Shown here: in pieces, positions 16,874 to 25,746 of the stretch
Numbering within the stretch: the stretch's first letter is position 1
Layout of the letters: each line of letters starts with the position of its first letter
From: Janibacter sp. DB-40
GTDB taxonomy: Bacteria > Actinomycetota > Actinomycetes > Actinomycetales > Dermatophilaceae
Assembly: GCF_029510815.1 (NCBI RefSeq)
Contig: NZ_CP120360.1
Span: 868,001-932,000, forward strand
DNA length: 64,000 nucleotides
Reading direction: 5' to 3'
Notes under the pieces: model-generated
Seen by the model: only the letters and a program-made list of their open reading frames with translations
Databases searched by the model: none
Told to the model about the DNA's origin: nothing
Translations under genes and position numbers: made by a program

Positions 16874-17081
16874 GGCTCGTCGCAACTGCTTAGGCTCCTG
16901 CGAAGGGGAGGGGGCGGCTCGTCACAACTGCTTAGGCTCCTGCGAAGGGAGAGGGGTGGCTCGTCGCAACTGCTTAGGCTCTTGCGAAGGGAGGGGGTGG
17001 CTCTTCGCAACTGCTTAGGCTCTTGCGAAGGGAGGGGGTGGCTCGTCGCAACTGCTTAGGCTCTTGCGAAGGGAGAGGGGG
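16874..17081. repeat. Five tandem copies of a 41-42 bp repeat upstream of rho
   Basis: Units start at 16874, 16916, 16958, 16999 and 17040. Each carries the core CAACTGCTTAGGCTC followed by CTGCGAAGGG or TTGCGAAGGG, and short inverted ends (GCAA / TTGC) allow a hairpin. The linkers between cores are conserved too (GGAGGGGGTGGCTC type), so these are tandem repeats, not CRISPR spacers. A related three-copy array lies at 25621-25746 before prfA. Confidence 0.92.
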
Positions 17082-17309: not shown

Positions 17310-19379
<2,070 letters not shown>

Positions 19380-19544
19380 GCGACCCGCCCCCTTCGCGCA
19401 CGTGGCCGCCACCCCGCCGGGTGGCGGCCACCTGCTGTCCGTACGGCCGCCGACCCCGTTGACCTGCAAGACGTCCGGTCGTCGCGGTTCGCCGTTCGCG
19501 GCTATCCTGCCCACGCACGCGCAGTGGTCGACATCGGAGGACGT

Positions 19545-19919
19545 ATGGCGCAGGGGGTGGTCCTCGTGGCGGACGACGATGCCGACATCAAGGACCTGGT
19601 CGCTTTCAAGCTGGAGAACGCCGGGTACTCGGTCCTCTCGGTCGCGGACGGCGATGACGCGCTGCGCCAGGTGCGTGAGCAGCGCCCGCAGCTGGCGGTG
19701 CTCGACGTGATGATGCCCGGGTTGTCCGGCCTCGACGTGCTCCGCGAGATCCGGGCGGACGAGACCCTCGCCGCCACCAAGGTCATCCTCCTGACTGCCC
19801 GCGCCCGCGACGTCGACGTCGACGCCGGGTTCAGCACCGGTGCGGACGACTACCTCACCAAGCCCTTCAGCCCGCGTGAGCTGGTGCACCGGGTCGCCCT
19901 GCTGATGGGGCGAGGCTGA
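19545..19919 (+). CDS. Single-domain response regulator (receiver only)
   Basis: This 124-residue CheY-like receiver has no output domain. The acidic pocket D10-D12, phospho-acceptor D54 in LDVMMPG, T84 in LLTARA and K106 in LTKPFSP are all present, so it should be phosphorylated. ATG 19545 is preferred because GGAGG lies six bases upstream; GTG 19524 is an in-frame alternative. The next gene begins three bases after its stop, and a histidine kinase ends the cassette (22477-24459). It probably acts by binding a protein partner such as the HEAT-repeat protein or the glycosyltransferase. That role is inference. Confidence 0.9.
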   Translation: MAQGVVLVADDDADIKDLVAFKLENAGYSVLSVADGDDALRQVREQRPQLAVLDVMMPGLSGLDVLREIRADETLAATKVILLTARARDVDVDAGFSTGADDYLTKPFSPRELVHRVALLMGRG

Positions 19920-19922
19920 CCG

Positions 19923-21023
19923 GTGGACGAGGTCGTCGTCCAGCCGTGGGTGCTGCGGCTGAGCCTGTGGGTGGTGCTCGCGACCTTCGTCGTGCTGCTC
20001 GCCACCATCGTCATGGCTCGTCTGGTGCGCAGCCGCCGACGTCGGGTGATCACGCGCGAGCTGGCACCCGTGCGTCGCGACATCGTCGCCATCGCTGCCG
20101 GTGACGACGAGGACGGGGCCGCCGACGCGAGACTGCGCGCACTCCACGGACACAGCGTGGAGCTCGTCGAGCCCCTCCTCGTCGGCTACCTGAGCAAGGT
20201 CCGCGGTGCGCCCGCGCAGCAGATCGTCGACATCCTCGTGGCCCACGGTCTGGTCCGGCGGGCGCGTGCGGGGCTGTCCGCCTGGTCGGGCACGCGTCGG
20301 GCCCGCTCGGCCTGGGTCCTGGGCGTCATGGGTGTCCGGGAGGCGACGAGCGAGATCGTCCCGCTGCTGCGGGACCGCGACCGCGGGGTGTCGGTGACGG
20401 CGGCCCGCGCGCTCGGGATGCTGGGTGACAGCGGCTGCGCAGCCGCGCTCCTGGCCGCGGTGGCCCCCGGACGCCGAGGACGAGGGGAGCTGCCGGTCTG
20501 GGTGGTCGTCGAGGCGCTCGGCGCCCTGGGGCCCGACTCCGCAGCGGTCGTCGGCGCGGCCCTGGACAGCCCGGACGCCTCGACCCGCACGGCTGCGGCG
20601 ATGACCATCGGACGGGCCCAGCACCTGTCCCAGCGTGAGCGCCTGCGCTCGCTCGTGGACCAGGAGCGGGACCCGGCGGTCCTCGCGGCCATCGCCGACT
20701 CCCTCGGCGAGCTGGGTGACCCCGCCGACGTGACCGCCCTTGCCGACATGACCGCACCCACCCTCCCCAGGTCGGTGCGGCTGGCCGCCGCCCGGGCGCT
20801 CGGGGCCATCGGCGACCGCGGAGCGGCCGTGGCGCTGACCGTCCTGCTGGCCGACGAGGACCTGCGAGTGGGCGAGCTCGCCGCGGACGCGCTCATCGGC
20901 CTGGGGGAGGGCGGGGTCGAGGTGCTGCGTGAGGCGGACGCGGCCGAGGGGCCGGCAGCGGCAGCCTCCGCCCACGGACTGGCCATGCACTCCCTTCGTC
21001 ACCCGATGGCCAGGGGCGCGTGA
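19923..21023 (+). CDS. Membrane-anchored HEAT-repeat protein
   Basis: This 366-residue protein has one N-terminal membrane helix (about 10-32), a basic segment (RSRRRR) and then a cytoplasmic alpha-helical solenoid of HEAT-type repeats (about 60-345). Repeated blocks such as SAWVLGVMGVREATSEIVPLL, AARALGMLGDSGCAAALLAAV and AARALGAIGDRGAAVALTVLL are visible. HEAT solenoids usually scaffold protein partners. It lies between a receiver and a glycosyltransferase, and its TGA overlaps the next ATG (TGATG). It may couple the phosphorylation state to the synthase. I know of no characterised homologue. Confidence 0.8.
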   Translation: MDEVVVQPWVLRLSLWVVLATFVVLLATIVMARLVRSRRRRVITRELAPVRRDIVAIAAGDDEDGAADARLRALHGHSVELVEPLLVGYLSKVRGAPAQQIVDILVAHGLVRRARAGLSAWSGTRRARSAWVLGVMGVREATSEIVPLLRDRDRGVSVTAARALGMLGDSGCAAALLAAVAPGRRGRGELPVWVVVEALGALGPDSAAVVGAALDSPDASTRTAAAMTIGRAQHLSQRERLRSLVDQERDPAVLAAIADSLGELGDPADVTALADMTAPTLPRSVRLAAARALGAIGDRGAAVALTVLLADEDLRVGELAADALIGLGEGGVEVLREADAAEGPAAAASAHGLAMHSLRHPMARGA

Positions 21024-22480
21024 TGGAGGAGGTCCTCGAGCCCGCCACCCCTGTCGTCGAGGCGATCTTCGGCGCCGTCGCGCTGCCCGTGCTGATCTAC
21101 TTCCTGCTGATCAACACCTCCTACCTCGTGCTCGTCGTCGCCGCGGCCCTGGAGTTTCGTCGCTCCACCCGGCAGCTGCCCTTCGCCGGGCGCGAGGAGC
21201 TCCTCGGCTCCGGACTGGTGCCGGGGGTCAGCGTCGTCACCTCGATGTACAACGAGGAGGTGGGGATCAAGGTCGCCACGCAGTCGATGCTCGCCCTGCA
21301 CTACCCGCGGCACGAGGTGATCGTCGTCGACGACGGCAGCAGCGACGGTGGCTTCGAGGTTCTGCGTGCTGCCTTCGACCTCGTCGAGGTGCCCCGACGG
21401 ATGCCCACGGACGTGGCGGTGCGCGAGGTCGCGACCTCCGTGCACGTACCGCGCAACGGCCGGACGCGACTGACCGTGGTGCGCAAGCCGAACTCCGGCC
21501 GCTCCGACTCCCTCAACGTCGGGGTCAACTTCGCCACCCAGGACCTCGTGGTCTTCGTCGACTCCGACTCCGTCCTCGATCCGGACGCCCTCCTGGCGGT
21601 GGCGCGACCCTTCGCAGAGGACCCCGTGCGCATGGTCGCCGGCGGAGGGGTGATCCGCGCCGTCAACGGGTGCAGCGTCCGTGGTGGCCGCGTCACCGAG
21701 GTGCGGATGTCGACGAGCTGGCTGGCGCGCATCCAGGTCGTGGAGTACCTGCGTGCCTTCCACCTCGGTCGCTGCGGCTGGTCGCGCCTGAAGTCACTCA
21801 TCCTCATCAGTGGCGCCTTCGGGGTCTTCCGCCGGGACGTGCTCGTCGAGGTCGGTGGGCTCGATCCGGGGAGCATCGGCGAGGACTTCGAGCTGGTCAT
21901 GCGGGTGCACCGGCACATGCGCCGCACCGGCCGTGACTACCGCGTCCAGTTCATCACCGAGCCGATCTGCTGGACCGAGGTCCCCGAGACGACGGCGGTG
22001 CTGCGCAAGCAGCGGCGGCGCTGGCACCGTGGTCTGTGGGAGACGCTGTGGGCCTACCGTTCGATGCTGCTCAACCCGCGCTACGGGCGCGTCGGCCTCA
22101 TCGCGGTGCCCTACTACTGGCTCTTCGAGCTCATCGCCCCCGCCCTGGAGCTGTTCGGGCTGGTCCTCGTCGTCGTGGGCTGGCTCCTCGGGGTCGTGGA
22201 CATGGGGTACTTCCTGCTCTTCATGGCCGTGGCCTACGGCTACGCCATGCTCGTGACCCTGGCGGCCATGACCGTCGAGGAGCTCAGCTTCCACAAGTAC
22301 CCGCGGTGGCGTGACCTGGTGAGCACCGCCGCCTCCGCCGTCGTGGAGAACCTCGGCTACCGACAGGCGACCGCGATCTGGCGCCTCGAGGGATGGGCGC
22401 AGAGCCTGGCCGGCCGCAAGCAGGAGTGGGGCACGATGACCCGCACCGGATTCGACACCGCGGACCGGTCGGACGGATGA
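21023..22480 (+). CDS. Processive family-2 glycosyltransferase, membrane-bound
   Basis: This 485-residue protein is of the cellulose/poly-GlcNAc/hyaluronan synthase type. It has an N-terminal membrane helix (about 12-42) and a GT-A catalytic domain with VSVVTSMYNEE (about 72-82), VVDDGSSDGG, the metal-binding FVDSDS (near 177), GEDFEL (near 285) and the processive signature QRRRW (near 329-333). Two to three C-terminal helices follow (about 370-425). It would polymerise a sugar nucleotide and export the chain. ATG 21023 overlaps the upstream stop; GTG 21020 is possible. It is coupled to the kinase gene by ATGA. The sugar is unknown. Confidence 0.88.
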   Translation: MEEVLEPATPVVEAIFGAVALPVLIYFLLINTSYLVLVVAAALEFRRSTRQLPFAGREELLGSGLVPGVSVVTSMYNEEVGIKVATQSMLALHYPRHEVIVVDDGSSDGGFEVLRAAFDLVEVPRRMPTDVAVREVATSVHVPRNGRTRLTVVRKPNSGRSDSLNVGVNFATQDLVVFVDSDSVLDPDALLAVARPFAEDPVRMVAGGGVIRAVNGCSVRGGRVTEVRMSTSWLARIQVVEYLRAFHLGRCGWSRLKSLILISGAFGVFRRDVLVEVGGLDPGSIGEDFELVMRVHRHMRRTGRDYRVQFITEPICWTEVPETTAVLRKQRRRWHRGLWETLWAYRSMLLNPRYGRVGLIAVPYYWLFELIAPALELFGLVLVVVGWLLGVVDMGYFLLFMAVAYGYAMLVTLAAMTVEELSFHKYPRWRDLVSTAASAVVENLGYRQATAIWRLEGWAQSLAGRKQEWGTMTRTGFDTADRSDG

Positions 22481-24459
22481 GCCCACGCAACACCGTCGCC
22501 CGTGTCCTCGAGCGCCTCGTCTCCCTGGTGTCCCTGGTCATCCTGCTGATCTCGCTGCTCTCGGTCGCCTCGATCCTGGTCATCCAGCACGAGGTGAGCC
22601 AGTCCACGAGCACGATCAGCCCGCTCGTCGACCGCAGCGCGCGGATGCGGATCGAGGCCACCGAGGCCCACGCCAACTACCGCGCCTACCTGCTGACCGA
22701 GGAGCCGCAGTTCCTCGAGCGGTACCGGGAGGCCAAGGCGACCTTCACGCAGGGACAGCGCGAGCTGCTCGAGGCGTCCGCCAGGGCGGGTGTCGAGGAG
22801 GAGCTGACCAAGACCTTCGTGGAGGCCGGGAGCCGCTGGTTCGAGGTGGCCGACGAGGACATCGCGACCGGCGCCGACGCGCGGACGCAGGCGCTGGGCC
22901 CCAACGCCAGCGCCTTCGACCAGCTGACCGACGCGCACGACTCCCTCGTGCAGGACATCGCCGAGGCCCGCCAGGACCGCCGCGACCGCTACAGCACGGC
23001 CATGAACGGCGCGGTGGTGGTCATGGGGCTGGCCACGCTGATCGCCCTGGCGGTCACCGTCCAGCAGAGCCGCCGCGCACTCGCTCGTCTGGCGCGCCCC
23101 CTCCAGGCCCTGCAGCAGGTCGTCGCCCGGCACCAGCGGGGCGCCGTGGACGAGCGCGCGGACACGACCCGCGGCGCAGACGAGGTCGTCGAGCTGGCCA
23201 GCGCCTTCAACTCCCTCGCCAGCGCCAACGCGAGGATGCAGCGCGAGCGCGAGCACCGACTCGACCTCTACCGCATCACCGGGCGCCTGCCGACGGTGCT
23301 GGGCTCGAGGGAGGGAGGCTGGGACCTGGCCTGCGAGCAGCTCGGGGCCGGCATCGGGGCGGACTCGACATCGGTCTACCGGCTCGTGGGTGAGGACGTC
23401 GCCGCGCTCATGGGCAGCTGGGACACCTCCGGTGCCGACTTCCCGCGCGCCGTGCAGGAGCTCGCCATCCCGGGGCTGTCCCGGATGCTCTCCGACCTGC
23501 CCATCCTGCGGGCGCGGACCCGCGCCGAGATCGAGGCCACCTTCCCGGAGGAGCTGCAGGAGGTGGCCCGCCGCCGGTCGCTGGAGGGCTGGGTCCTGCT
23601 GCCGATGTGCTTCCAGGACGAGGCCGTCGGGGCCTTGTCCGTGGTCACCAGCGAGCCGCACGAGTGGGACGAGGCGGAGATCCAGGCCATGGAGCGGGTC
23701 GCCGAGTACGCGGCGCACACCCTCGTCGAGCAGCGCTACGTCGCCTCGCTGGAGGATCTCGACCAGCAGAAGTCGACCTTCATGGCGACGACGAGCCACG
23801 AGCTGCGTACCCCGCTGACCTCGATCGCGGGGTACCTCGAGCTCCTCGAGGACGGTGACTACGGCCGGCTGAGTGAGCCGCAGGCGCGGGCGCTGGACGT
23901 GATCGCCCGCAACGTGGAGCGGCTGCGCAGCCTCATCGACGACCTCCTCCTGCTCAACCGGCTGGACAGCGGTGAGGCCAACACCCAGCGCCGGGTCCAC
24001 GACATCGCCCACAGCACGGCACGAGTGGTCGAGCAGCTGGCTCCCGTGGCCACCGCCGCCGAGGTCGACCTCGTCCTCGAGCAGCCCGAGGCCCCCGTCC
24101 GGGCGCGTGTCGACCCGGCGCAGATCGAGCGCGCGATCGGCAACCTCGTCAGCAACGCGGTGAAGTTCACCCCTGCCGGGGGAGTCGTGCGCCTGACGAC
24201 CGGGGTCCACGGTGACGAGGTGCGCATCGTCTGTGCGGACACGGGGATGGGGATCCCTGCCGCGGACCAGGAGCGGCTCTTCACGCGGTTTTTCCGCGCG
24301 AGCAACGCCCAGCAGGGGCAGGTCCCCGGCACGGGGCTCGGGCTGGTCATCGTCGAGTCCATCGCCGCAGCGCACTGCGGCCGTGTCGACCTCGCCTCGA
24401 CCGAGGGGGAGGGCACCACGGTCACCCTGACCCTCCCGCTCGCGCCGCGCGAGGGATGA
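22477..24459 (+). CDS. Sensor histidine kinase (CHASE3-like, HAMP, GAF, HisKA, HATPase)
   Basis: This is a 660-residue membrane kinase. Helix 1 (about 15-38) is followed by a periplasm-facing CHASE3-like helical domain (about 40-175, with RIEATEAHANYRAYLL), helix 2 (about 178-198), HAMP (about 200-255) and a GAF domain (about 265-420). HisKA carries the phospho-histidine H441 in TSHELRTPL, and the ATPase domain has NLVSNAVKFT, DTGMGI and GTGLGL. ATG 22477 overlaps the glycosyltransferase stop by four bases. It is the obvious phosphodonor for the receiver at the start of the cassette. A hairpin repeat follows seven bases after the stop. Confidence 0.93.
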   Translation: MSPRNTVARVLERLVSLVSLVILLISLLSVASILVIQHEVSQSTSTISPLVDRSARMRIEATEAHANYRAYLLTEEPQFLERYREAKATFTQGQRELLEASARAGVEEELTKTFVEAGSRWFEVADEDIATGADARTQALGPNASAFDQLTDAHDSLVQDIAEARQDRRDRYSTAMNGAVVVMGLATLIALAVTVQQSRRALARLARPLQALQQVVARHQRGAVDERADTTRGADEVVELASAFNSLASANARMQREREHRLDLYRITGRLPTVLGSREGGWDLACEQLGAGIGADSTSVYRLVGEDVAALMGSWDTSGADFPRAVQELAIPGLSRMLSDLPILRARTRAEIEATFPEELQEVARRRSLEGWVLLPMCFQDEAVGALSVVTSEPHEWDEAEIQAMERVAEYAAHTLVEQRYVASLEDLDQQKSTFMATTSHELRTPLTSIAGYLELLEDGDYGRLSEPQARALDVIARNVERLRSLIDDLLLLNRLDSGEANTQRRVHDIAHSTARVVEQLAPVATAAEVDLVLEQPEAPVRARVDPAQIERAIGNLVSNAVKFTPAGGVVRLTTGVHGDEVRIVCADTGMGIPAADQERLFTRFFRASNAQQGQVPGTGLGLVIVESIAAAHCGRVDLASTEGEGTTVTLTLPLAPREG

Positions 24460-24466
24460 TGCCCGT

Positions 24467-24528
24467 GATCAGGTGGTCGACTGGTGCGAGAAGACCGCGT
24501 CGATGCCGCACGAGGTGACCACCTGATC
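24467..24528. repeat. Interspersed hairpin repeat, copy 3
   Basis: This third copy of the family seen at 6479 and 6585 ends in a perfect GATCAGGTGGTC/GACCACCTGATC inverted pair. The inner sequence has diverged (AAGACCGCGTCGATGC in the loop), while the terminal arms are kept. It lies between the kinase gene and the convergent GNAT gene, so it could serve as a two-way terminator. Confidence 0.8.
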
Positions 24529-24553
24529 CGGTACGACTCGTGCGAAGGGGGAG

Positions 24554-25120
24554 TCAGTCCGCCTCGTCGTCCGCGGACCGGTCCAGGTGCAGGCGCATCT
24601 CAGGAAAGCTGACGTCGGTGAAGCCGAAGCGCTCGTACATCGCCCGGCCCTCCTCGGTGGCGTTGAGCGAGATCACGCCGACGTCGGTCTCCTCGGTGAA
24701 CCACTCGAGCAGTGCCTCGACCGTCGCCCGGGTGAAGCCGAGCCGCCGGTGCCGGGGGAAGGTCGCGACGTTGGAGATCCGGCCGCCGTCGTCCGAGCCG
24801 AAGGGGGAGGGCATCAGGGGGACGACCTGCCCCATCGCGCACGAGACGACGGTGCCGTTGGCCTCGGCCACGACGATGCACACCCTCGGGTCGGACAGGC
24901 GCAGCTGGATCCAGCGGGAGGCGTCCTGCTGCCAGCCGATGTCGAGGACCTCGTCGGAGGAGACCCCCATGGCCTCGAACATCAACGCGCGCAGGGCGAT
25001 GATCGTCGCGATGTCACCCTGGACGGCCGGGCGGATCACCGAGCCCTCCACCGGGCCCGGGACCGGCTCCCTTCGGCGGTCCCGTCCGGGGCGTCGGGGG
25101 ATGCGGGAGGAGCGAGCCAT
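24554..25120 (-). CDS. GNAT-family N-acetyltransferase
   Basis: This 188-residue protein has a GNAT acetyltransferase domain from about residue 28. Visible are [20 protein letters not shown], the acetyl-CoA-binding region ([23 protein letters not shown], which resembles the R/QxxGxG/A loop) and the C-terminal [15 protein letters not shown]. The substrate is unknown. ATG 25120 gives a Pro/Arg-rich N-terminus; GTG 25039, next to the start of the domain, is an alternative. It is convergent with the kinase gene and divergent from rpmE. It interrupts the rho-rpmE-prfA order known from other actinobacteria. Confidence 0.85.
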
Positions 25121-25620: not shown

Positions 25621-25746
25621 CCGGCCCACCCCCTTCGCAACTGCTTAGGCTCTTGCGAGAACCCGGCCCACCCCCTTCGCAACTGCTTAGGCTCCTGCGA
25701 GAACCCGGCCCACCCCCTTCGCAACTGCTTAGGCTCCTGCGTCACA
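25621..25746. repeat. Three tandem copies of a 42-bp repeat upstream of prfA
   Basis: The period is exactly 42 (starts 25621, 25663 and 25705). Each unit has CACCCCCTTCGCAACTGCTT followed by AGGCTC and CTGCG or TTGCG. The core CGCAACTGCTTAGGCTC is the same as in the five-copy array before rho, in the same orientation, but the linkers differ. The array ends three bases before the GGAGG ribosome site of prfA. Confidence 0.92.

Follow-up and report, generated by a model that had tools for sequence, protein, structure and literature searches.

We describe a compact set of four genes in the actinobacterium Janibacter sp. DB-40 that we read as a candidate two-component-gated polysaccharide synthase: a sensor kinase would phosphorylate a single-domain receiver, which would act on a complex of a HEAT-repeat protein and a glycosyltransferase post-translationally and without cyclic dimeric GMP (c-di-GMP). 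We give this reading a probability of roughly 0.6. The genes lie in the window, the 64,000-nucleotide stretch of contig NZ_CP120360.1 (assembly GCF_029510815.1, positions 868,001 to 932,000, forward strand) that was analyzed, and had been singled out there by an earlier interpretation made from the letters alone (hereafter the sequence-only reading). The block is about 5 kb long, has rho upstream and rpmE downstream, and consists of four genes in this order:

19545-19919, forward strand: RR, a single-domain receiver (response regulator without an output domain) of 124 amino acids, from Pfam
19923-21023, forward strand: HEAT, a membrane-anchored HEAT-repeat protein of 366 amino acids, from Pfam, hydropathy and an AlphaFold2 (AF2) model
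21023-22480, forward strand: GT, a membrane-embedded, GT2 polysaccharide-synthase-like glycosyltransferase of 485 amino acids, from Pfam, AF2 and structural matches
22477-24459, forward strand: HK, a sensor histidine kinase of 660 amino acids, from Pfam and hydropathy

The junctions read from the sequence (+3, -1 and -4 bases) agree to the base with those given in the sequence-only reading, and Pfam backs every one of its labels. An upstream receiver would rarely occur by chance, since the genome, a single contig of 3.35 Mb, has only 17 receiver matches.

Loci in other genomes were selected by GT alone, so that the neighboring genes serve as a test. A profile search of genome contigs with the GT alignment gave a set of actinobacterial loci, the best 80 of 353 relatives, which we call the named loci. 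A HEAT gene lies on the same strand within 800 bp upstream of GT in 77 of the 80, and the three exceptions (L058, L062 and L066) have at most 214 bp of sequence before GT, at a contig edge. Where at least 1.8 kb of upstream sequence was available, a receiver was found within 2.7 kb on either strand in 71 of 72 loci (the miss being L082), and in 69 of 72 the receiver shares the strand and is no more than 1.6 kb away. The kinase is nearly as regular. In 77 named loci the sequence extends 2.5 kb or more downstream, and 71 of these have a kinase directly after GT: on the same strand and no more than 1.3 kb away in 52, convergent and no more than 400 bp away in 19. The other 6 have neither. Rare co-location of the homologues, which the sequence-only reading had said would count against it, is not what these genomes contain; judged from these genomes, the genes are co-located far beyond chance.

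A wider draw of 396 genomes across the phylum, drafts included, contained GT at E <= 1e-80 in 56 genomes, that of the window among them; 53 loci were analyzed after excluding five of the 58 GT places outside the window that fell at contig edges. HEAT was found by hidden Markov model (HMM) in 47 of the 53. Flanking sequence was sufficient in 50 loci; HEAT is present in 46 of them and a receiver in 38 (near and on the same strand in 26), and a same-strand kinase lies directly downstream in only 2 of 44, the kinase being upstream or not found nearby in most. The two sets of counts therefore point to a HEAT-GT core with which a receiver is commonly associated and a kinase whose position depends on the lineage; receiver and kinase, by these counts, are less constant at greater distance from the window lineage. 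Four phylum-set loci without a HEAT match despite sufficient flank (L129, L148, L150 and L154) each have a HEAT-like-looking open reading frame (ORF) in that place, scoring clearly in L129 (62 bits), more weakly in L154 (21 bits) and marginally per domain in the other two. In G036, a genome first seen as GT-only, HEAT (scoring 81 bits) and two matches to receivers adjoin GT. Conversely, a GT relative with a low score (118-142 bits) lies directly downstream of HEAT in each of five loci of family f34 (L166-L170), examined out of a larger number with a strong HEAT match and no listed GT; no receiver was found near these five, and their degenerate-looking GT relatives are possibly a pseudo-enzyme branch of the HEAT-GT pair. 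The occurrence of HEAT in 183 of the 396 genomes is not a module count, as it includes generic HEAT proteins, and the counts in general are not independent, with several species per genus and L090 and L091 being near copies in one assembly.

The sequence-only reading had placed the block as an insertion between rho and rpmE, and the comparison with close relatives bears this out. The rho-rpmE distance is 5,970 bp in the window and 888-1,019 bp in all seven same-genus genomes in which it was measured, out of ten without a HEAT match. One of these (G013) shares 99% identity with the window over the part of rho compared, so that close strains differ by about 5 kb; the genus includes very closely related strains of which some carry the module and others lack it. 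In two other genomes of the family (G016 and G018) the gap is 1,691 bp and 224 bp. Across 16 same-genus genomes HEAT was found in 6, GT in 5 and HK in 5, and HEAT, GT and close HK (E <= 1e-90) are jointly absent from 10. A set of 39 relatives has HEAT in 11, GT in 11 and both in 10, and the 5 with a close HK all carry HEAT and GT. By this pattern of presence and absence, the four genes are an accessory block. The same-genus genome G011 retains receiver and HEAT open frames, but its GT match is only 24 residues long and gives way to unrelated ORFs, two of which look resolvase-like (L014, 8332-9862 and 11585-13132), and its module has apparently decayed through mobile insertion or deletion. The Desertimonas GT shares 68% identity with that of the window, compared with 58-63% for Intrasporangium, Phycicoccus, Knoellia and Terrabacter, which we take to be much closer kin of the window organism; this fits transfer of the unit.

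Could the clustering be fortuitous or purely inherited, with no functional link? Many of the loci are related, and of 139 distinct ones (a number that excludes L012, L013 and L019, repeats of L022, L024 and L049, and also L091), 34 have rho, rpmE or prfA next to the module. Counting only the loci whose sequence extends 3.5 kb or more upstream and 5.5 kb or more downstream of the GT start, the figure is 27 of 97. The remainder lie elsewhere. The variety of sites, phyla and even domains, the fused forms described below, the joint absence in close relatives and the HEAT-GT counts, which already oppose the pair being mostly apart, all speak against such an explanation, and we consider it very improbable. 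An all-against-all clustering of the flanking ORFs was swamped by antisense shadow ORFs, as GC content is high, and was used only as a pointer to rho.

GT has Pfam matches above cut-off to GT2 families, and the QRRRW motif on which the sequence-only reading based processivity is present at residues 330-334. Across 139 loci including the window, the acidic residues are nearly invariant (D104 in 138, D180 in 139, D182 in 139, E287 in 138 and D288 in 139), and Q330, R331, R333 and W334 are each found in 139 of 139, giving the complete D..DxD..ED..Q(Q/R)xRW catalytic set of processive membrane GT2 synthases of the HAS/BcsA type. The AF2 model (mean predicted local distance difference test score, pLDDT, 92.4; predicted template modeling score, pTM, 0.91) matches structures of hyaluronan and cellulose synthases, over both catalytic and transmembrane (TM) parts, and also a mannosyltransferase. 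GT is thus predicted to be a polysaccharide-synthase-like enzyme, its model being hyaluronan/cellulose-synthase-like without PilZ. That it is instead non-processive, attaching sugars one at a time to a lipid or a polymer of the cell wall so that the module controls envelope decoration, seems to us improbable.

Nearer comparison sets GT apart from the known synthases. Identity to the hyaluronan synthases of Chlorella virus and Xenopus is 15-18%, and to our knowledge these have no receiver or HEAT partner. The best-scoring NCBIfam model is that of the poly-GlcNAc synthase PgaC/IcaA (PgaC_IcaA, TIGR03937), at 117.6 bits against a cut-off of 422.3, and unlike PgaC/IcaA the window block has no deacetylase or small PgaD/IcaD-like partner. 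BcsA cellulose synthase carries a C-terminal, c-di-GMP-binding PilZ domain, whereas the window GT has no PilZ domain (none at E <= 0.1) and is accompanied by a receiver and HEAT instead.

Post-translational control of synthase-dependent polysaccharide pathways is frequently based on c-di-GMP, according to the introduction of PMC12802240. Searches of the window genome found nothing that matches GGDEF, nor PilZ at E <= 0.001, and c-di-GMP control is therefore unlikely here; in control searches of 14 genomes, GGDEF was detected in 8 and PilZ in 5. For the window organism, the proposal that the system works without c-di-GMP is accordingly well supported.

The receiver was said in the sequence-only reading to lack an output domain and to have intact phosphorelay residues, and this holds both here and in nearly all relatives. 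Pfam Response_reg covers residues 6-117 (101.5 bits) with no other family above cut-off. The best-scoring solved chains are OmpR/PhoB-type receivers, and RR is OmpR/PhoB-like by sequence, with no C-terminal winged-helix DNA-binding domain of such factors found by Pfam. Its phospho-site residues D54, T84 and K106 are present, so that RR qualifies as a single-domain response regulator: a receiver domain alone with the Asp/Thr-Ser/Lys set intact. Among 119 module receivers including that of the window, a set chosen by position that may include a few non-module receivers, D54 is found in 117, T/S84 in 119, K106 in 119 and D11 in 116; the tail is at most 17 residues longer than in RR in 118 of them and 44 longer in L025. 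Position 93, near alpha-4, is acidic in 80 of the 119 and, by eye, hydrophobic in six OmpR-like receivers of the window genome, and nearby position 96 is F in 86 of the 119 as against L; these two positions are a suggestive module-receiver signature only.

HK has CHASE3-HAMP-GAF-HisKA-HATPase_c above Pfam cut-off and two TM segments by hydropathy (18-36 and 175-193). HisKA and HATPase_c were found in all 58 kinases scanned (HK itself plus 57 out of 72 that had been taken from named loci), while the sensor part differs among them. The kinase, as far as gene order and domain content tell, is the least fixed partner of the module.

HEAT matches HEAT_2 (72.8 bits), HEAT_PBS and HEAT above cut-off and has a hydropathic TM segment at 13-31. 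In its AF2 model (mean pLDDT 95.2, pTM 0.86), a helix at 8-58 is followed by 19 helices, which predicts one long N-terminal helix containing the TM segment and then an alpha-solenoid. Foldseek matched this model to designed alpha-Rep binders and other solenoids, matches that speak for a HEAT-like solenoid nature only. The best-scoring NCBIfam HEAT models are those of the HEAT-like proteins CpcE and NblB, weakly (35 and 30 bits, far below cut-offs of 330 and 300), and HEAT differs from both in being TM-anchored and in adjoining GT.

Outside the Actinobacteria, ten of 14 plasmid records were examined (H3, H4, H7 and H13 were left out). HEAT precedes GT, by annotation or HMM, in nine of the ten, and a receiver is nearby in six. 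Two haloarchaea have the order RR-HEAT-GT, uninterrupted in Salinirubellus and with a small intervening gene in Halosolutus, where a sugar-phosphate nucleotidyltransferase and glmS follow GT as a pair and hint at an amino-sugar polymer. Three alphaproteobacterial plasmids have RR-HEAT-GT with an exporter-like gene between: receivers, YaiO, HEAT, GT and then Hpt on the opposite strand in Mesorhizobium, and receiver, TPR gene, HEAT and GT in Erythrobacter and Devosia, the Devosia GT frame being broken. Emticicia has a receiver, a hypothetical gene, GT and YaiO, and in Deinococcus, Paenibacillus, Bacteroides and Planococcus no receiver is near HEAT-GT. In the Planococcus plasmid (L164, 1-7401), HEAT-GT is lined up with genes for polyphosphate polymerase-domain, DUF4956 and CotH kinase proteins.

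Several components also occur fused, the four fusions that follow being represented by one sequence each. HEAT and GT form a single 938-residue open frame in L114, whose genome (G273) has a second copy as separate genes (L111), and are likewise joined in P0336, which lacks the usual N-terminal membrane part of GT. P0241 is a GT with a C-terminal receiver and P0251 a GT with a C-terminal Hpt. The fusions therefore argue for contact between HEAT and GT, a predicted contact that these natural fusions support, and for contact of the receiver with GT or the GT complex. Several GTs in the protein database carry YaiO-type C-terminal parts. Two further ones (P0329 and P0344, the latter probably from G126, L115) have a C-terminal extension of about 700 residues without a Pfam match. 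By eye this extension, possibly a glycoside hydrolase, is similar to an ORF immediately upstream of HEAT-GT in L154.

These fusions bear on how the receiver might act. In one alternative it acts directly on GT, and HEAT belongs constitutively to the structure of the synthase, for instance as co-polymerase or export adaptor, and transduces no signal. Both P0241 and P0251 would fit this, as would the presence of HEAT beside GT where no receiver is nearby. It fits less well that actinobacterial loci with all three genes mostly read RR-HEAT-GT, with HEAT in the middle, and that in twelve phylum-set loci (L105, L108-L110, L112-L114, L116, L118, L119, L121 and L145) a receiver on the opposite strand still adjoins HEAT. 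We regard this alternative as unlikely. Another has the receiver as a phosphorelay shuttle or a phosphate sink for other kinases or regulators, a co-expressed neighbor of a GT controlled by transcription only. Single-domain receivers can serve in relays, and Hpt genes adjoin GT in Mesorhizobium and Devosia, both of which count for it; but Pfam finds no DNA-binding gene inside the window block, and recurrence across sites and phyla together with fusion to GT points to a physical role. We think it quite improbable.

Under the gated-synthase reading, the CHASE3 kinase would sense an extracellular signal and phosphorylate D54 of the receiver, which would dock on the cytoplasmic HEAT solenoid, held beside GT by its N-terminal helix. 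The HEAT-GT complex would then change state and start (or stop) making a polysaccharide processively, perhaps an amino-sugar polymer, and exporting it through the membrane. We suppose that the phosphorylated receiver activates through HEAT, the sign of control being the weakest step, and that receiver and HEAT would together fill the role that c-di-GMP and PilZ have in cellulose synthase. Much the same scheme was put forward in the sequence-only reading; the conserved ordered set, the single-domain receiver, the synthase-like GT, the missing c-di-GMP parts and the HEAT-GT fusions all favor it, while phosphotransfer, receiver-HEAT binding and the polymer are what we infer.

The nearest precedent is EpsW-EpsZ of Myxococcus xanthus, in which, according to PMC12802240, a single-domain response regulator activates an exopolysaccharide enzyme through direct interaction. 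The proposed module is alike in having a single-domain regulator and a post-translational polysaccharide switch by protein contact. As described there, however, EpsW takes its input from the Dif chemosensory system, and EpsZ, a large monotopic phosphoglycosyl transferase, initiates a Wzx/Wzy pathway, whereas the window enzyme is GT2 synthase-like with a HEAT partner. The sequence-only reading knew of no described system with this set, and we likewise found no description of a HEAT-GT or RR-HEAT-GT system in open PMC full texts, mostly judged on the title or the start of the abstract and with subscription journals and preprints outside the scope; in the portion of PMC12419801 consulted, the sole mention of HEAT repeats is unrelated to such systems. 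The components are of known kinds, and their combination and breadth appear unreported within the literature searchable.

Recurrence in bacteria and some haloarchaea suggests a little-noticed phosphorylation switch for polysaccharide production. It is about an even chance, in our judgment, that the two groups share a widespread, undescribed class of polysaccharide secretion machine in which a two-component receiver directly gates a processive synthase via a membrane-anchored HEAT solenoid. Such a class would do by phosphorylation what the c-di-GMP/PilZ switch does, with lineage-specific add-ons such as YaiO/TPR outer-membrane exporters in diderms, Hpt relays and other fused C-terminal domains. 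If the receiver-HEAT-synthase route is real, different kinases could drive matrix or capsule production through it, and a function could be given to many proteins whose present label says no more than HEAT-repeat protein, response regulator or glycosyltransferase family 2. For organisms without c-di-GMP parts, such as the window strain, the module would be a concrete and testable answer to how a synthase is gated.

Two further features lie between HK and rpmE, the first of them absent from the sequence-only reading:

24554-25120, reverse strand: GNAT acetyltransferase gene
24467-24528, no strand assigned: inverted repeat with 22-nt arms (86% complementary) and an 18-nt spacer, directly 3' of the HK stop

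The inverted repeat is placed between converging genes and is possibly the transcript end of the block. A consensus scan found no terminator-like or promoter-like sites in 19300-24700, and comparison with PHROGs gave nothing useful. Intergenic tandem repeats of 41-42 bp with a similar core occur before rho (16874-17080, 5.0 copies) and after rpmE (25621-25741, 2.9 copies).

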